Assembly: GCA_016788165.1 (NCBI GenBank)
Contig: JAEUTH010000008.1
Location: 124,001-188,000 of the forward strand
Source of the DNA: Bacteroidia bacterium
GTDB lineage: Bacteria > Bacteroidota > Bacteroidia > AKYH767-A > OLB10
DNA length: 64,000 nt
Direction of reading: 5' to 3'
The notes below the pieces were generated by a model. It made no database searches. It was not told the DNA's origin and saw nothing but the letters and a program-made list of their open reading frames with translations. Shown in pieces: positions 9,740 through 18,289 of the stretch. The position numbers and the translations under genes were made by a program. Within the stretch, counting starts at the first letter, position 1; each line of letters starts with the position of its first letter.

Positions 9740-12709
9740 ATGAAAAGTAAAAAACTAAATTTTATTGCAAGTGCCATACTTGTAACACTTACCGTACATG
9801 TACAGGCGCAATGGCTGGTTGGCGGCAATGCCTTAGGTGCAGCCGGCAGTATGGGTAGCACAACCAATTACGATGTAAACTTTATTACCAACAACTTAAA
9901 CCGTATGACGCTTACCAAAGCCGGCTTATTAGGCATTGGTACAACTACGCCCGGTTTTTTATTAGATGTGCAGGCAACCGGTAATGCCAGTGCTAATTTT
10001 AAATCGGCTACGGGTACAGCCAATTTAATTATTGACCGTGGCAGTGCTACAGCTACCTCATCAGTTAGTTACCGTACAGCAGGCACGCCAACATGGCAAA
10101 CAGGTACTTTGGGTACTAATAATTTTGCCATACGCAACAGCGCATTGGCACAACCTGCTATGGTTGTACTTGCAACCAATAATTACATAGGCATTGGAAC
10201 AACAACGCCAACGGCACGGTTTCAGGTAAGTGATGATGTAAAGTTTCATGGGGTGCGTGTAGGCTTAGGTGGTGGCGGTGATGCGTATAGTACCGTAGTT
10301 GGTTATGAGACATTGCTAAACAATGCTGGCGGCAGTGGTAATACAGCAATTGGTTACCGTGTTTTAAATTCGAATACAACCGGTAGTAGCAATTCGGCTT
10401 TCGGCCTTGAATCATTAAAATCAAACACTATTGGGCATAATAATAGCGGCATTGGTGCTTATACATTAAATTACAACTCCGAAGGATCAAACAATATCGC
10501 AATAGGTAGCTATGCAATGTATAGCAACACCACGGCAAACAACAATACATCAATTGGTATTTACTCGATGTCGAACAACGTGACAGGTGAAGCAAATGTA
10601 GCTTTAGGACTATATGCATTGAGCTTTAACCAAACCGGAAATGACAATACAGCTATAGGCTCGCGTGCTATCTATTCAAACTCCTCAGGTTATTCAAATG
10701 TAGCCCTGGGCACAAGTTGTTTATATAAGAATGTTACAGGTAGCAACCTGGTAGCCGTAGGCGACTCTGCATTGTACAACTTAAACGGTGGTGTGGGCCA
10801 AAATACGGCCATAGGTAGTAAATCGCAGTATGCTACAACAACAGGTGCTTACAATACCTCACTGGGTTATAATTCATTAATGGCGAATACAACAGGTTCA
10901 TCTAACTCAGCTTTGGGTAGCGCTGCATTAAATTTCAATACTACAGGATATGGAAACGCTGCTATGGGTAGTTATGCATTATTTTTTAACACAACGGGTT
11001 ATAATAATTCAGCAATGGGTTCAGGCGCTTTGTATAGCAATACAACAGGCTATCATAATGCGGCTTTAGGTGTTAGCGCATTGTATTACAACGCAACAGG
11101 CAATGGAAATTCATCTGTTGGTAATTATACATTATATAACAATACAACAGGTAATTATAATTCAGTGTTAGGTTATTTATCAATGAATTCCAATGTTTCT
11201 GGGCATAACAATTCAGCCATTGGATATAGTGCATTATATTACAATACTTCCGGCAGCAATAATGCGGCAGTAGGCTATTATTCATTGACTTTTAATACTA
11301 CCGGTTACTCAAATGTAGCCATGGGCACAAGTTGTTTATATAAAAATGTTACAGGTAGCAACCTGGTAGCCGTAGGCGACTCGGCATTGTACAACTTAAA
11401 CGGAGGTTTTGGCCAAAATACGGCCATAGGTAGTAAATCGCAGTTTGCTACAACAACAGGTGCTTATAATACTTCTGTGGGTTTTGAAACTTTAAGAGAT
11501 AATACACTTGGCTCCAACAATACAGCTATAGGTAGTGCGGCCTTATTTGCCAATACAACAGGCAACTATAATATTGCAACCGGAAGTTTTTCGTTATTCG
11601 CTAACATAAGTGGGTACTATAATACAGCAACCGGTTATGAAGTTTTGTTTCCCAATACTAGTGGATCGTGGAACGCAGGCCATGGATATTTATCATTAAG
11701 AACTAATACTACAGGATATCAAAACGCTGGTTTTGGGGCCTATTCTTTATACAATAACACCACCGGTTTTCGTAATGCAGCACTTGGATATGGTAGCGAT
11801 GTATCGTCAGGTGCATTAAACAATGCAACAGCGCTTGGTTCTCTTGTTATAGTAAATGCCAGTAATAAAGTGCGTGTAGGTAACAGTACGGTTACGGTAA
11901 ACGAAATAAATGCAGGTGTGTGGACAACCAGCGATGGCCGTTTTAAGTATGATGTAAAAGAAGAAGTAAAAGGTTTGGATTTTATAAATGCTTTACGCCC
12001 TGTAGTGTATAATTTTGATGCATGGAAGTTTGAGGAATTTTTACGTCAGAATTACCCTGCCGAAAGAAGAACAGAACAATTAAACGAAATGAAAGACGGA
12101 TTAAAACGTGCCAGCGATATACGCCAAACCGGATTTATAGCACAGGAAGTTGAAGAAGCTGCAAAACGTGTGGGTTATAACTTTAACGGTGTGCACCATC
12201 CCGAAACCCAGGAAGACAATTACAGTGTAGCGTATGATAAGTTTGTAGTGCCATTGGTAAAAGCCGTGCAGGAGTTATCAGTTGATAATAATAAGTTGAA
12301 AGCTGAAAATGAAAAAATTACGATAGAGGGTGAGAAGATGAAAATTGAAATAAAAAGCTTGGAAACAACCGTAGCCGAAATGAAAGCATGTATTGAAACA
12401 CTATGCCAGTCATCGTTACAAAAAACAGTTACACCAATAAATGAAAGCGGAAGTTATTTACGCCAAAACAACCCCAATCCATTTAACACACATACCGTAA
12501 TAAATTATGTTATAGCTGCCAAAGCAACTACGGCTATGCTTAAAATATTTTCAGTAAATGGTATCGAATTAAAATCCTATAAAATCAACACCCAAGGCCC
12601 GGGTCAAATAGAAATTGCAGCACATGCCTTTACACCCGGTGTTTATACCTACATTTTAATTGTTGATGATAAAACCATTGATACCAAACAGATGGTGGTT
12701 ACGCAGTAG
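9740..12709 (+). CDS. Giant surface repeat protein with S74-type chaperone tail and T9SS domain
   Basis: A 989-aa exported protein. A signal peptide (about 1-24, TLTVHVQAQ) is followed by a short head, then roughly residues 190-700 of 17-residue repeats with consensus NTTGxxNxAxGxxALxx, resembling YadA-type adhesin head repeats and predicted to form a left-handed beta-roll. Next comes an intramolecular-chaperone domain of the peptidase S74 type (about 730-845: SDGRFKYDVKEEVKGLDF...TGFIAQEVEEAA), a coiled coil (about 850-890) and a T9SS sorting domain (NNPNPFNTHTVINY to the end). S74 domains normally trimerise tail fibres and may self-cleave. A likely job is a trimeric surface adhesin; that is inference. 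It contains a recent internal duplication. Confidence 0.85.
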   Translation: MKSKKLNFIASAILVTLTVHVQAQWLVGGNALGAAGSMGSTTNYDVNFITNNLNRMTLTKAGLLGIGTTTPGFLLDVQATGNASANFKSATGTANLIIDRGSATATSSVSYRTAGTPTWQTGTLGTNNFAIRNSALAQPAMVVLATNNYIGIGTTTPTARFQVSDDVKFHGVRVGLGGGGDAYSTVVGYETLLNNAGGSGNTAIGYRVLNSNTTGSSNSAFGLESLKSNTIGHNNSGIGAYTLNYNSEGSNNIAIGSYAMYSNTTANNNTSIGIYSMSNNVTGEANVALGLYALSFNQTGNDNTAIGSRAIYSNSSGYSNVALGTSCLYKNVTGSNLVAVGDSALYNLNGGVGQNTAIGSKSQYATTTGAYNTSLGYNSLMANTTGSSNSALGSAALNFNTTGYGNAAMGSYALFFNTTGYNNSAMGSGALYSNTTGYHNAALGVSALYYNATGNGNSSVGNYTLYNNTTGNYNSVLGYLSMNSNVSGHNNSAIGYSALYYNTSGSNNAAVGYYSLTFNTTGYSNVAMGTSCLYKNVTGSNLVAVGDSALYNLNGGFGQNTAIGSKSQFATTTGAYNTSVGFETLRDNTLGSNNTAIGSAALFANTTGNYNIATGSFSLFANISGYYNTATGYEVLFPNTSGSWNAGHGYLSLRTNTTGYQNAGFGAYSLYNNTTGFRNAALGYGSDVSSGALNNATALGSLVIVNASNKVRVGNSTVTVNEINAGVWTTSDGRFKYDVKEEVKGLDFINALRPVVYNFDAWKFEEFLRQNYPAERRTEQLNEMKDGLKRASDIRQTGFIAQEVEEAAKRVGYNFNGVHHPETQEDNYSVAYDKFVVPLVKAVQELSVDNNKLKAENEKITIEGEKMKIEIKSLETTVAEMKACIETLCQSSLQKTVTPINESGSYLRQNNPNPFNTHTVINYVIAAKATTAMLKIFSVNGIELKSYKINTQGPGQIEIAAHAFTPGVYTYILIVDDKTIDTKQMVVTQ
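10688..10860 (+). repeat. Internal long repeat, copy 1
   Basis: This 173-bp stretch is nearly identical to 11303-11475, about ten differences by eye, many of them silent. Spacing is 615 bp, a multiple of three, so the reading frame is kept. It encodes YSNVALGTSCLYKNVTG and onward. Confidence 0.9.
11303..11475 (+). repeat. Internal long repeat, copy 2
   Basis: Partner of 10688-10860. The flanking 17-residue repeats have diverged much more, so this block was copied or homogenised later than the rest of the array. Confidence 0.9.
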
Positions 12710-12940: not shown

Positions 12941-12952
12941 TGATTTAAATCA
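12941..12952. promoter_or_regulatory. Crp/Fnr-like dyad upstream of the 604-aa gene
   Basis: TGATTTAAATCA is a perfect TGAT-N4-ATCA palindrome, the core of Crp/Fnr-family sites. Its centre is 36.5 bp before the last G of a TTTG element (12980-12983), placing it near -41.5, the class II activator position. The same arrangement occurs at 18275-18286. Confidence 0.5.
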
Positions 12953-13021
12953 TGTTTTGTAGCTTAATAAATGGAGTGCTTTGCTGCATTATTTAGTATA
13001 TAAACTCAAACGATTGATATT

Positions 13022-14836
13022 ATGCACACGGCACCTTTACATTCATTCCACATACCTGTTATGGGTTTAGGCTTTACTATTGACACACCTATAAAAGTAG
13101 CACGTTATGGTATTTCATCGGTTATTTCAATTATTGAGGATGAATTGGTAGAACAGATGCGCAAGTTTCACAGTAAAGAGGCGGGCGAAATTTTTGTGCC
13201 GGTTTCTAATACCGAAGACGACTTCAGAGCCAAACGATTTACAGCATATTTAAATCTGATTAATCGCATGGTAAGTAAACAAATGGAAATTATACGCAAG
13301 CTGCCATTTGAACCCGGAAACGACCTTTCAAAGTATTTTGAATTATTACCTGATAACGCACTATTGCGCAAGCTGTATCGTCAAATGATGGATGAAAATG
13401 ATGTGACCAAAAAACATGCTATGCAACAACAACTGCGAAACCAAATACAAGCCGGTGCCATTGATGCCAATATTATGTCGAAGGTTGATAAAACCAACTT
13501 TAATAAAAGCGATGAAGCGTTGGCCAACGAGTATTCAGATGCATTGGCATCGTTACGTGGTTTTGCCAATAGCGATTTGCATGCTTCGGTAATTTTTTCG
13601 GCAGGATACAATCCGCGTTTATATGCATACATCGAATCGTTTCCGGATTTTTATCCCGATGCAACCGGTTATCTGAAAAAGAAAATTGTTTTAAAAGTAA
13701 GCGACTACCGTTCGGCTATTATTCAAGGAAAGATTTTAGCTAAAAAAGGTATTTGGATTTCGGAGTTCCGAATTGAATCGGGACTAAATTGTGGAGGCCA
13801 TGCATTTGCAACCGATGGTATTTTACTAGGTCCCATATTGGAAGAGTTTAAAGAAAAACGAAACACCATTGCAAACGAGTTATTTGATTTATGCAATCAG
13901 GCACTTGCAATAAAAGGTTACAATACATTTAAAGCAATGCCGCAACTTCGTATAACGGTGCAGGGTGGAATAGGTACAGCAGCTGAAAACAAGTTTTTAT
14001 TTGAGCATTATCAGATTGATGGCACAGGATGGGGTAGTCCGTTTCTATTAGTACCCGAAGCTACCAATGTTGATGCCGATACACTGCAGCAGTTGGCACA
14101 GGCGCGCAAGGAAGATTATTACATGAGTTATGCATCGCCTTTAGGTATTCCGTTTAATAATTTCAGAAAAAGTACTTCGGAACAACAACGTTTAAAACGC
14201 ATCCAAAAAGGAAGACCGGGCAGCCCTTGTTACAAAAAATTTTTAGTTACCAACACAGAGTTTACCGAACGACCCATATGTACGGCTTCGCGTCAATATC
14301 AACATTTAAAAATTAAACAATTAGAAAGTTTGAATTTAGATGCTGAAGTACTGCAAGCCGAAATTGATAATGTAACTGCAAAAGATTGTTTATGCGAAGG
14401 CTTGGGTGCTTCGGCATTAATAAATGAAGGCATACATCCGGCTCATGGTTTAACTGCTGTAGCAATATGTCCGGGGCCTAACCTGGCTTATTTTTCAAAC
14501 ACCTTTACATTAAGTCAAATGGTAGATCATATATACGGACGTATAAATATTTTAAATCAGCAAAAGCGCCCAAATATGTTTGTAAACGAGCTAAGTTTGT
14601 ATGTTGATTACCTTAAAAAGGAAATTGAAAAATGCGCCAAAACAATTTCTGAAAAACAGCTTAAATATTTTAATGTTTTCAGAAACAATTTATTAAGTGG
14701 TATTGATTATTATGTAAACTTAATACCTGCGCTTAAACTCGAATCAACAACTTATACGGTGCAGTTAAAACAGGATTTGATGGATGCACGTACAAAACTT
14801 AATGCAATGGTTATTGCACCGCTGGTTGCATTATAA
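13022..14836 (+). CDS. Uncharacterised 604-aa protein, possibly an FMN-type TIM-barrel enzyme with a Cys cluster
   Basis: No signal peptide. The start VMGLGFTIDTPIKVARYGIS and the segment VQGGIGTAAENKFLFEHYQ followed by DGTGWGSPFLLVPEAT resemble the phosphate-binding end of FMN-dependent TIM barrels of the nitronate monooxygenase/glutamate synthase kind. ESGLNCGGHAFATDG carries a conserved-looking Cys-Gly-Gly-His. A later cysteine set (GSPCYKKF, PICTASRQY, KDCLCEGLG) could bind an Fe-S cluster. An alpha-helical insert lies at about 60-180. I do not recognise a named family with certainty. It is a single-gene unit convergent with the MbnPH operon and carries the same Crp/Fnr-like dyad at the same distance from its promoter, suggesting shared redox or anaerobic control. 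Confidence 0.6.
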   Translation: MHTAPLHSFHIPVMGLGFTIDTPIKVARYGISSVISIIEDELVEQMRKFHSKEAGEIFVPVSNTEDDFRAKRFTAYLNLINRMVSKQMEIIRKLPFEPGNDLSKYFELLPDNALLRKLYRQMMDENDVTKKHAMQQQLRNQIQAGAIDANIMSKVDKTNFNKSDEALANEYSDALASLRGFANSDLHASVIFSAGYNPRLYAYIESFPDFYPDATGYLKKKIVLKVSDYRSAIIQGKILAKKGIWISEFRIESGLNCGGHAFATDGILLGPILEEFKEKRNTIANELFDLCNQALAIKGYNTFKAMPQLRITVQGGIGTAAENKFLFEHYQIDGTGWGSPFLLVPEATNVDADTLQQLAQARKEDYYMSYASPLGIPFNNFRKSTSEQQRLKRIQKGRPGSPCYKKFLVTNTEFTERPICTASRQYQHLKIKQLESLNLDAEVLQAEIDNVTAKDCLCEGLGASALINEGIHPAHGLTAVAICPGPNLAYFSNTFTLSQMVDHIYGRINILNQQKRPNMFVNELSLYVDYLKKEIEKCAKTISEKQLKYFNVFRNNLLSGIDYYVNLIPALKLESTTYTVQLKQDLMDARTKLNAMVIAPLVAL

Positions 14837-14889
14837 ACAGGTGCCATATACGTAATTTGTAATTAAAAGTATTTAATGCTAACTGCCTG

Positions 14890-15804
14890 TTAAAACGCAA
14901 ACCGGTTTTTAAATGTTAGCAGTTCGGTTTTGAAATGGGTTTCAGGTATTGAAATAAACTTGTTTAGTTTTCCGTTTAATGTTACTTGAATTTGAGGCAT
15001 AGCGATATGTTGGTTTAAAAACTGAAACTCCATGCCAGGATAAATGTCTTGTAAGGTTTCTACCACCGTATTAATATCTAAATTCTTGTCAACTAAGTTG
15101 TAAATGCCTGATTCGATATGGGTTGTACAAAGCTTGGTTAATACTTGCGTTACTTTATCAATATGAATAAATGAGCGATACTGGGCACCGTTACCATTTA
15201 TTTGGATGCGCTTAAAAAAATTCGCATCAAACATTAATTTATTAATTACAGCATCAAATCGCATGTTGGTACTATAACCATACACATTACTGCAACGTAG
15301 TATGATGGTATGCATGTTATCAAACAAACGCATTACATGTCCTTCGGCACGTAATTTACTTATGCCGTAAAAGCCCATTGGATTGGTTGGCGTAAGCTCA
15401 TCAACCATTTCGGCCGAATGGCCATAAACAGCCGATGAACTGATAAAAACAAATTTTTTTATATCGTTTTCTTCCAGTGCATACACTAAATCAGCAGTGC
15501 CCCAATGATTTATTTGTTCAAACTGACTGGCATCCAGGTTCGAAAACGGTGTAGTAACTTTAGCTGCAAGATGATATACTACATCAACATCTTTTAATGC
15601 TTTACGTAAACTGCGATTGTCTAAAATATCAGCCTGTATAAATTGTAGTTTGTTTTTAAAAACGGCTTCTCCAAAAAACAAATTGTAGTTGGCGCGACTT
15701 AAATTATCATACACAATTATTTGTGTAACTTCTTTTTGTGCAGCTAACGATTTCGAAAGTTCAGCACCAATGTATCCTGCACCACCGGTTATTAATATTT
15801 TCAT
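14890..15804 (-). CDS. NAD-dependent epimerase/dehydratase (extended SDR)
   Basis: A 304-aa nucleotide-sugar-type enzyme. The Rossmann motif GGAGYIG is at residues 7-13, the catalytic serine region is FISSSAVYG and the YxxxK motif is YGISK. Such enzymes epimerise, dehydrate or rearrange NDP-sugars. It is the last gene of the MbnP-MbnH-CysH-epimerase series and starts 3 bp after the CysH stop, so the two are probably translationally coupled. A sulfite-using sugar enzyme akin to UDP-sulfoquinovose synthase would explain the pairing with an APS reductase, but the protein is shorter than known SQD1 enzymes, and that idea is inference. Confidence 0.8.
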   Translation of the reverse strand: MKILITGGAGYIGAELSKSLAAQKEVTQIIVYDNLSRANYNLFFGEAVFKNKLQFIQADILDNRSLRKALKDVDVVYHLAAKVTTPFSNLDASQFEQINHWGTADLVYALEENDIKKFVFISSSAVYGHSAEMVDELTPTNPMGFYGISKLRAEGHVMRLFDNMHTIILRCSNVYGYSTNMRFDAVINKLMFDANFFKRIQINGNGAQYRSFIHIDKVTQVLTKLCTTHIESGIYNLVDKNLDINTVVETLQDIYPGMEFQFLNQHIAMPQIQVTLNGKLNKFISIPETHFKTELLTFKNRFAF

Positions 15805-15807
15805 AAG

Positions 15808-16464
15808 TTATTTTTTGTCGGCTATTAAATCTGTATTTAAACCACACTCGGTTTTTTTTAAACCATACCACCGTCCGCCACGTGAACTGATTTCAAATTT
15901 ATGCGTACAGGGTTCGCAACCGATGCTGAAAAATCCTTTTTCTTCTAACGGATGTTTGGGTAAATTATGGGTTTTTGCATAATCGTAAATCATTTTTGGT
16001 GTCCAGTCTAACATGGGATGAAACCTAATGGCATGGTGTGGTGTAGGCTCCTCTGTTTTAAAATTTTTACGTGTACTGCTTTGGTCGGCACGTACGCCAT
16101 TTATCCACACATCGTACATGTGCAGCAAGCCATTAACGGGCATGGTTTTGTTTATATAACAGCAATGGTCGGCATCGGATGCAAATAAAAATTGGTTGTT
16201 CATATCCTTTTGCAAACTCTTGGGTACGTGACTCGACAAGCTTTTGACATTAATTTTCAGCAGTGCAGCTATTTGATTTTTATACGCTATGGTCTCGGTA
16301 AAATGAAAACCTGTATTTATAAAATAAACGGTTATGTTTTTGTCAATGGTTGTAAGTATGTGCAGTAGCACAATGCTATGTGATTGAAACGAACAGGTAG
16401 TAAAAAGTGAAAGTCCGCGCTTTTTATAATTTTCTATTTGCCTGCCAATTTCAGATACTGTCAT
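15808..16464 (-). CDS. cysH: Adenylyl-sulfate (APS) reductase, [4Fe-4S] CysH type
   Basis: A 218-aa sulfonucleotide reductase that makes sulfite from activated sulfate using thioredoxin. The paired cysteines Cys101-Cys102 (DADHCCYINK) and Cys183/Cys186 (GCEPC) are the four ligands of the [4Fe-4S] cluster that separates APS reductases from cluster-free PAPS reductases. The C-terminal KKTECGLN carries catalytic Cys207. The usual RGGRW segment is also present. Its start is 25 bp beyond the MbnH stop and its stop is 3 bp before the epimerase. No ATP sulfurylase (cysDN) or sulfite reductase is in the window, so sulfite may go elsewhere or those genes lie outside. Confidence 0.85.
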   Translation of the reverse strand: MTVSEIGRQIENYKKRGLSLFTTCSFQSHSIVLLHILTTIDKNITVYFINTGFHFTETIAYKNQIAALLKINVKSLSSHVPKSLQKDMNNQFLFASDADHCCYINKTMPVNGLLHMYDVWINGVRADQSSTRKNFKTEEPTPHHAIRFHPMLDWTPKMIYDYAKTHNLPKHPLEEKGFFSIGCEPCTHKFEISSRGGRWYGLKKTECGLNTDLIADKK

Positions 16465-16489
16465 ATTTCAAAAAATTTATCGTTTGTGT

Positions 16490-17497
16490 TTAGAACGGAC
16501 TGGCAAATGCTGTATCAGATAAATAAACAGTATCGGTGAGAGTAAGCAGAAATGCTTTTAGTTTTTCTTTTTCGCTATTGGTTAAATTTAAACCATACGC
16601 TTTGCCGGGTTTGGTAAGCACAGGGTCGAGCGATGCCGAATTTTTAACCTTGCTATTGTAATGTTCAATTACTTCGTCCAGTTTGGTGTAACGTCCATCG
16701 TGCATAAATGATGTGCGGATACCGCAGTTGCGAAGTGAAGGTGTTTTAAATTTACCCAGATCGGCCGGATTGGCAGTAACATTATAATAGCCGGCATTTA
16801 CTCCGTTAAAAATAGAGTCTAAGCCAATGTTATGCCTGTTTCCATCGCCCATTAGTGATAGCGAATGACAATGAAAACAATCGCCTCGCTCGCTAAAAAA
16901 TATGGTAAGCCCGGTTAGCTCATCGGCTGTTAATGTAAGCTCATGACGCAGATATTTATCGAATTTAGAATTGCCCGAAACCAAGGTTCTTAAAAATTGC
17001 GCCAATGCATAAGCACATTTTTTCGAATCAATTTCTGTGCTTCCAAACGCTTTGTAAAACAGCAATGGATAGGTATCATCGTTTTGTAGCTTGCTGATGT
17101 TGGTTTTAAAAAAGTCTTCAACTTCGAAAATCATCGCATCTTCAAGTGTGCCTTCTATTTCGCCATTCCACAAAAACTTATTGCCATATCCCAAATTAAT
17201 ATGTGGTAAAATATTGGTACCCTTTTTTGTAAAACCTTCCGATTGTAAATGACAACTGGCACATGCCATGCTTCCGTTAGGGTGCATAATTTTATCATAG
17301 TATAACATGCGGCCCAATGCCACCCCTTCAACTGTGGTGGGGTTGCTGGCTGGTATATTCATAACCGGCAAATTTCCGGGTAGTTTTATAGTTAATGGTG
17401 TGGGGTTAAAAGGCGGTAACGTATCACCCTCTTTTTTACAGGCATTTACTACTACAATTATGAGCGTTATGATTATGATTACCAGCAGTTTTTTCAT
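16490..17497 (-). CDS. MbnH-like di-heme c-type enzyme (MauG / cytochrome c peroxidase family)
   Basis: A 335-aa lipoprotein (lipobox VVNAC, Cys20) with heme sites CASCH (Cys79-His83) and CFHCH (near 211), the LGRMLYYD and GSMACASCH context of bacterial di-heme peroxidases, and the C-terminal TPSLRN...FMHDGR pattern. It begins 10 bp after a MbnP-like gene. Characterised MbnH enzymes oxidise a tryptophan of their MbnP partner to kynurenine, which creates a copper site; a general cytochrome c peroxidase is the alternative, but the partner gene makes MbnH the better name. It acts in the periplasm or at the outer membrane. Confidence 0.85.
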   Translation of the reverse strand: MKKLLVIIIITLIIVVVNACKKEGDTLPPFNPTPLTIKLPGNLPVMNIPASNPTTVEGVALGRMLYYDKIMHPNGSMACASCHLQSEGFTKKGTNILPHINLGYGNKFLWNGEIEGTLEDAMIFEVEDFFKTNISKLQNDDTYPLLFYKAFGSTEIDSKKCAYALAQFLRTLVSGNSKFDKYLRHELTLTADELTGLTIFFSERGDCFHCHSLSLMGDGNRHNIGLDSIFNGVNAGYYNVTANPADLGKFKTPSLRNCGIRTSFMHDGRYTKLDEVIEHYNSKVKNSASLDPVLTKPGKAYGLNLTNSEKEKLKAFLLTLTDTVYLSDTAFASPF

Positions 17498-17507
17498 TTC
17501 TTTTTGC

Positions 17508-18230
17508 TTAGTTTATTGTAAACACATCCGATCCGTTTTGCTTTATTTTTGCCATGGCAGCACTGTCAGACATGGTAAAATTGCCGTCAATATTCAAATC
17601 ATATATATGCGGATTCTTAAACCATTCATTAATATTCATGCTAAGATTAATGCGGTTCATTTCGGGCTTAAGCGAAATGTTTTGTGTAATATTTATTACT
17701 ACACAATTTTGGTTACGCCCCAAATGTATGGCCATACCAAACATTTGATTTTGGTCCATAAACTTGCCTTCTAATTTTATAAAGTGATAACCACCACCCA
17801 TTGCCGGTGGCCAGGCCATATTGTTGTTTTCTATCGTATTGGGTAATGCATTGCTAAGGTTGTGTAAACTGTCAAGACCAATTAAAAACGTAACTCGCTT
17901 ATAAGTGCCGGCCGGTAAATCAGTAAAACTTAAGTTTAAATTATTTTTGTTTTTTACATCAACCAGATACACATCATTAAATTTATAAATCTGGCCTGTT
18001 GTGTTTTCGAATTCAAATGCCGATAAATAAAATATCAGGTTCGAAATACTGTAGTTGTTGCCTGCAGCATTGTAATATCCCAGTGTGTCAAATTTTAGTA
18101 TTTCATTTTCAACAGTAAACTGTAATGCAATTTGTGTAGGCGTTACCGGTTGTGATGCTGTTTCGGTTTTTTTGCATCGTACCTGAAATAATGCAGATGC
18201 AATTACGCAGCCAATGAAAATTATACGCAT
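17508..18230 (-). CDS. MbnP-family copper-binding lipoprotein
   Basis: A 240-aa lipoprotein (lipobox FQVRC, Cys19). The family pattern is visible: IALQFTVENEILKFDT, YSISNLIFYLSAFEF, LVDVKN, AGTYKRVTFLIGLDS, MAWPPAMGGGYHFIKLEG and GMAIHLGRNQN. MbnP proteins bind copper after a partner MbnH enzyme converts a conserved tryptophan to kynurenine; Trp140 in the MAWPP segment is the best candidate here. First gene of the series with MbnH 10 bp downstream. A Crp/Fnr-like dyad lies upstream. No methanobactin precursor or TonB receptor is nearby, as is usual for MbnPH pairs outside methanotrophs. Confidence 0.82.
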   Translation of the reverse strand: MRIIFIGCVIASALFQVRCKKTETASQPVTPTQIALQFTVENEILKFDTLGYYNAAGNNYSISNLIFYLSAFEFENTTGQIYKFNDVYLVDVKNKNNLNLSFTDLPAGTYKRVTFLIGLDSLHNLSNALPNTIENNNMAWPPAMGGGYHFIKLEGKFMDQNQMFGMAIHLGRNQNCVVINITQNISLKPEMNRINLSMNINEWFKNPHIYDLNIDGNFTMSDSAAMAKIKQNGSDVFTIN

Positions 18231-18243
18231 GACTAATTTTTAG

Positions 18244-18251
18244 CAAGGCTA
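18244..18251 (-). promoter_or_regulatory. Candidate -7 box for the MbnP operon
   Basis: Read on the - strand it is TAGCCTTG, one base off TAnnTTTG, 13 bases before the ATG at 18230. A weak box fits an activator-dependent promoter. Confidence 0.4.
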
Positions 18252-18271
18252 CGTTTATTGTATGCATTAAA

Positions 18272-18289
18272 AAATGATGCAAATCATTT
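18272..18289. promoter_or_regulatory. Crp/Fnr-like dyad upstream of the MbnP operon
   Basis: AAATGATGCAAATCATTT is an 18-bp palindrome with 7-bp arms around GCAA and contains TGAT-N4-ATCA at 18275-18286. Its centre is 36.5 bp from the last G of the -7 box, the same spacing as at 12941, and near -41.5 from the expected start of transcription. Confidence 0.55.

Follow-up and report, generated by a model that had tools for sequence, protein, structure and literature searches.

We analysed two FNR-type dyads, and the genes that follow them, in a 64-kb window of a Bacteroidia bacterium genome of 3.34 Mb (G000); the window is the whole stretch of DNA under study and corresponds to C3:124001-188000. 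The dyad TGATTTAAATCA is found upstream of a gene for a 604-amino-acid (604-aa) orphan protein, while TGATGCAAATCA is found upstream of an mbnP-mbnH-cysH-epimerase operon, and the two operons converge. The features of this part of the window are, in window coordinates:

12941..12952, + strand: FNR-type dyad TGATTTAAATCA, centre 12946.5 (predicted -41.5), conserved in orthologous promoters
12976..12983, + strand: weak -7-like element GTGCTTTG, final G at 12983 (predicted -5), predicted start near 12988
13022..14836, + strand: 604-aa orphan flavoprotein-like enzyme gene, predicted TIM barrel of the NMO/FabX/PfaD type
14890..15804, - strand: NAD-dependent sugar epimerase/dehydratase gene (Pfam Epimerase, 7.3e-40), 3 bp after cysH and converging on the 604-aa gene
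15808..16464, - strand: (P)APS reductase gene cysH (PRK02090, above cut-off; CC and CxxC motifs), 25 bp after mbnH
16490..17497, - strand: MbnH/MauG-like di-heme enzyme gene (TIGR04039, 1.7e-56, below cut-off; Pfam CCP_MauG)
17508..18230, - strand: MbnP-like copper-binding protein gene (Pfam MbnP, 9.2e-31)
18244..18251, - strand: -7-like element TAGCCTTG, final G at 18244 (predicted -5), predicted start near 18239
18275..18286, - strand: FNR-type dyad TGATGCAAATCA, which reads TGATTTGCATCA on the minus strand, conserved in orthologous promoters

An initial annotation of this DNA had described the two dyads, had given both the same distance of 36.5 bp between the dyad centre and the final G of the -7-like element, and had proposed that orthologous promoters be examined for them. 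Both dyads are present at those positions and the distance is exactly 36.5 bp in each case. Arms of AAATGAT/ATCATTT enclose the dyad TGATGCAAATCA at 18272-18289. The pattern TGATN4ATCA occurs four times in the window, against 1.14 expected from shuffles (four was reached in 2 of 100 shuffles), and only TGATTTAAATCA and TGATGCAAATCA are intergenic. The whole genome contains 113 occurrences, compared with 42 of the reversed pattern and approximately 60 extrapolated from the window shuffles.

Conservation was assessed in two sets of promoters. The first comprised the promoters of 604-aa and MbnP orthologs, from relatives found via the 604-aa gene and MbnH, which were scanned over 200 bp upstream; the second comprised 78 promoters from species genomes and is largely separate, with at least one genome shared between the sets. 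TGAY-N4-RTCA was found within this distance of 23 of 25 orthologs of the 604-aa gene and 19 of 25 MbnP orthologs, whereas in dinucleotide shuffles of the first-set promoters a mean of 0.45 carried the motif (maximum 4). When spacer lengths of 0 to 9 were compared in the first set, N4 alone produced a peak and no other length exceeded 3. The dyad was retained in 53 of the 78 second-set promoters, so the conservation that the annotation had asked about is seen in both sets. In the 47 first-set sites, the position preceding the dyad (position 0) is A in 24 and T in 5, and the position following it (position 13) is T in 35 and A in 5. The predicted operator of the regulon is thus ATGAY-N4-RTCAT, with a kept TGA/TCA core and flanks that are mostly A and T; the canonical FNR motif TTGAT-N4-ATCAA was rejected since these flanks do not fit it. 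Upstream of two of the 604-aa orthologs (L031 and L033), we also observed a second palindrome, TCGGATA-N4-TATCCGA-like, at -69 and -44, which falls downstream of the dyad, across part of the promoter region, and is perhaps a repressor site.

The dyads are also held at fixed distances from their promoters. In the first set, the G of TTTG/TTCG lies at exactly +36.5 in 20 of the 47 sites (the runner-up distance accounts for 6), and in the second set TTYG distances peak at 36.5 (26 sites) and 58.5 (14 sites), with all others at 6 or fewer. The flavobacterial promoter element TAnnTTTG spans -12 to -5, with its final G at -5 (PMC9723704), so distances of 36.5 and 58.5 bp would place the dyad centres at -41.5 (class II) and -63.5 (class I-like). 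On their predicted starts, both window sites are therefore centred where sites of class II FNR-dependent promoters are expected, as the annotation had argued, and theirs is the commonest spacing in both promoter sets. The second geometry, with the dyad 22 bp further upstream, was seen at several other promoters of the window's genome. Among the loci examined, 35 non-redundant pairs of TGAYN4RTCA dyads stood in tandem at a spacing of exactly 22 bp (e.g., L110, L203, L250 and L268), with other spacings at 2 or fewer, a count that gives no unbiased rate because many of these loci were chosen for carrying one such site.

Only one protein in the window's genome scores above the HTH_Crp_2 cut-off, and it is encoded 14 kb upstream of the window:

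G000:C3:109179-109889: FNR-type regulator gene, beside a clade II nosZ operon

The protein combines a cNMP-binding fold (PF00027, 2.2e-21) with a Crp-type helix-turn-helix (PF13545, 3.3e-15). Its best NCBIfam model is Fnr (PRK11161) at 106 bits, below the cut-off of 228, which marks it as FNR-type and not as an equivalog of E. coli Fnr. Across 15 orthologs, C10, C13 and C112 are invariant and C22 is present in at least 90%; the sequence hence has the N-terminal cluster and central cysteine of an FNR protein, although the N-terminal C-x2-C-x8-C spacing is unlike that of E. coli FNR. The recognition helix reads TETTIR, compared with VETISR in E. coli FNR, a difference that fits a kept TGA core with changed flanks. 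The adjoining nos operon encodes a cytochrome c, NosZ (TIGR04246, 942 bits), NosL, NosD, an ABC ATPase and a permease. The 604-aa gene adjoins a Crp/Fnr gene in three relatives (G015, G018 and G041), and in G053 mbnPH and an FNR-like gene both lie no more than about 13 kb from it. The Crp/Fnr-family regulator that had been anticipated can accordingly be narrowed, as a prediction, to this FNR-type protein with conserved cysteines beside nosZ.

Further Crp-like and cyclic nucleotide-binding proteins were observed. The FNR gene and cytochrome c-nosZ are separated by a gene for a 136-aa cNMP-binding-fold protein lacking a DNA-binding domain (L076:8650-9060; G000:C3:108650-109060), with dyads on both of its sides; a dyad within nosZ (L076:7536) was set aside as coding. 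Most relatives (e.g., G001:C32, G016:C2 and G033:C2) encode a Crp-like protein in a reading frame that is about 355 aa long, and a similar neighbour of the 604-aa gene (L285:9044-10073) starts like a response-regulator receiver.

Regulon content in the window's genome was compiled from stretches around sites, with approximately 50 of the 113 TGATN4ATCA sites listed, and is therefore partial. The 58.5 spacing occurs in front of ccoN, of genes for a copper ATPase and tryptophanase, of cytochrome c-nosZ and of an HmgA-like gene, and the 36.5 spacing in front of a tryptophan 2,3-dioxygenase gene. In relatives, dyads can be found before ccoN-like genes, RIC repair proteins, universal stress proteins (Usp) and fnr itself. 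Among the genes neighbouring the 604-aa gene in the species genomes are hemN, nos, nor-like, cco and RIC genes, as named from their sequence starts. The dyads before tryptophanase, the HmgA-like dioxygenase and tryptophan 2,3-dioxygenase (G000:C7:220332 and 221793, L085; G000:C13:7698, L097) may link aromatic amino acid breakdown to the regulon, and an HmgA-like start also follows a dyad in L199.

We consider it likely, with a probability of roughly 85%, that both window dyads are binding sites of the FNR-type regulator of this genome, and that they belong to an oxygen-responsive FNR regulon with class II and class I-like sites on Bacteroidota sigma-A promoters. From the sites, their conservation and geometry, the sequence features of the regulator and the content of the regulon, we infer binding, the sign of regulation and oxygen as the signal. 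As oxygen falls, a [4Fe-4S] cluster on the four cysteines would let the regulator dimerise and bind (a)TGAY-N4-RTCA(t). Positioned at -41.5, it would overlap the -33 region of both window promoters and activate a sigma-A RNA polymerase that could not use the poor -7 element alone, whereas at the ccoN, copper ATPase, cytochrome c-nosZ and tryptophanase promoters it would act from -63.5 in a class I-like manner. The window would then hold two operons of a regulon for microaerobic and nitrous oxide respiration, one for the 604-aa FabX-like enzyme and one for mbnP-mbnH, in which cysH and the epimerase are carried as passengers.

Several observations weigh against this interpretation. No dyad is present within 200 bp in about one third of the second-set 604-aa promoters, among them several from Pontibacter and the tested Ignavibacteria and Omnitrophota. 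Because several Crp/Fnr paralogs occur in relatives, the cognate protein there is only presumed. The -7-like element of the mbnP operon, TAGCCTTG, has the TA of TAnnTTTG, and GTGCTTTG in the 604-aa promoter lacks it. The pattern scan that the initial annotation had proposed gave a divided result: dyad-N27-TTTG was not enriched in the window's own genome (4 matches versus 4 in controls), but across 61 genomes it had 693 matches, and N49 had 565, against 189 for the N24 control, with N27 exceeding N24 in 56 of the 61. The geometry consequently rests on the relatives and not on the window or on a single genome. If the dyads were chance palindromes in AT-rich intergenic DNA that share 36.5 bp by coincidence, this null result and the mild excess in the window (4 versus 1.1) would be expected; the retention of dyads in orthologous promoters across families, together with the sharp distance peak, refutes such an explanation, which we find scarcely credible.

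A nitric oxide (NO)-sensing Crp/Fnr protein of the DNR/NnrR/HcpR type could instead read the dyads, in which case the regulon would be a nitrosative or denitrification response. Such a regulon would be compatible with the nos operon, with the RIC repair proteins seen in relatives, with the many Crp/Fnr paralogs of relatives and with the correlation of the 604-aa gene with nosZ across genomes (20/6/13/22, Fisher p = 0.004, with the relatedness of the genomes ignored). We nevertheless judge NO sensing to be unlikely, given that ccoN and the copper ATPase are typical targets of an oxygen response, that the Bacteroides HcpR2 motif GTAACn4GTTAC differs from the window dyads, and that the sole canonical Crp/Fnr protein of the genome has the four-cysteine signature that is missing in HcpR and DNR (PMC1274295). 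The regulator could also act as a repressor that turns the operons off at low oxygen, and some regulon members do look oxygen-using (the tryptophan 2,3-dioxygenase and the HmgA-like dioxygenase). A site at -41.5 combined with poor -7 elements is, however, the classical layout of an activator, and FNR-type proteins elsewhere activate ccoN and nosZ, which makes repression quite improbable. Activation by the FNR-type regulator thus remains our preferred interpretation.

The annotation had further proposed that the 5-kb cluster forms one Crp/Fnr regulon. This stands for the two promoters, whose dyads are conserved, but cysH and the epimerase join through the operon only, because they are not beside mbnPH in relatives. 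Their gaps of 25 and 3 bp predict co-transcription with mbnPH; the first-set loci, with 1.5 kb flanks, showed no relative of either gene next to MbnH or to the 604-aa gene, and we rejected both as conserved regulon members. The copper-binding pair itself resembles the MbnP-MbnH pair of methanotrophs in that a copper-binding-type protein matching Pfam MbnP is encoded next to a di-heme MauG-like enzyme matching CCP_MauG. It differs in falling below both NCBIfam cut-offs (TIGR04052, 30.7 of 140 bits; TIGR04039, 191.7 of 362.85 bits) and in having FNR-type sites upstream. No methanobactin genes were noticed among the neighbouring genes examined, and a methanobactin link was dropped on that ground. 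Elsewhere in the window, positions 9740-12709 encode a 989-aa protein in which 'TAIG/SAMG' units are repeated many times and whose C-terminal part is a Peptidase_S74 chaperone domain.

The 604-aa protein has no credible Pfam, NCBIfam or PDB sequence match. More than 590 relatives were found, and the 80 listed are mostly from Bacteroidota, with some from Ignavibacteria and Omnitrophota. Twenty-four relatives align to it at 49-65% identity, with well over 100 invariant residues that include H260 and six of its eight cysteines (C257, C403, C420, C456, C458 and C483, but not 291 and 538). In fold comparisons, the predicted model (pLDDT, a per-residue confidence score, of 84.7) best matches Helicobacter pylori FabX (Z 22.8 over 336-337 residues), followed by enoyl reductase domains of fatty acid synthases and by PfaD (Z 20.5). 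An NMO-type barrel is therefore predicted, in which the invariant H260 may be the catalytic histidine, with low model confidence for residues 256-261. The likeness to FabX, PfaD, FabK and NMO lies in the predicted fold and in a glycine-rich GGH containing the invariant histidine; the protein is 604 aa long compared with 363 for FabX, and the two have no sequence-level match. In H. pylori FabX, a dehydrogenase/isomerase of the NMO family, C300, C304, C308 and C320 hold a [4Fe-4S] cluster (PMC8626469), and a comparison of cysteine spacing showed that the FabX ligand pattern CX3CX3CX11C is absent from the 604-aa protein. The modelled fold would be compatible with an enzyme that modifies fatty acids without oxygen, although FabX itself uses oxygen as its required acceptor, so that an anaerobic role would demand a different one. 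The window's genome also encodes desaturases of the oxygen-dependent type (PF00487).

Beyond the initial annotation, the sequences point to an FNR promoter grammar that holds across a class and extends to this orphan enzyme. A large FNR regulon could be common to Bacteroidia, with an operator of its own, ATGAY-N4-RTCAT, and a fixed TAnnTTTG promoter grammar (-41.5, -63.5 or both in tandem, 22 bp apart). The FabX/PfaD-like flavoenzyme would be a core member of this regulon and would supply a step that needs no oxygen, perhaps one of unsaturated fatty acid synthesis, in place of an oxygen-dependent desaturase when oxygen is absent; we offer this extension tentatively and regard it as doubtful. 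A class-wide site and spacing rule would allow the oxygen and nitrous oxide responses of many uncultured Bacteroidota to be predicted from their sequences, and placing the orphan family and MbnPH in a low-oxygen response makes both testable.

Our literature searches found no described FNR operator for Bacteroidota, and the Crp/Fnr proteins described from this phylum (HcpR, PgRsp and CrpPg) appear to be of other kinds. HcpR of Bacteroides and Porphyromonas is likewise a Crp/Fnr-family regulator of Bacteroidota, but it lacks the FNR cysteines, recognises GTAACn4GTTAC in most species and mainly controls hcp (PMC1274295). The closest parallel is with E. coli FNR, whose class II promoters share the N4-spaced dyad, the TGA core, a centre at -41.5 and a cysteine-bearing FNR protein, and the targets are of the kind known for FNR homologues, such as cbb3 oxidase and denitrification genes. 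The E. coli site and recognition helix differ from those described here, and the Bacteroidota regulon is further distinguished by its use of TAnnTTTG promoters, a -63.5 site class and tandem sites 22 bp apart.

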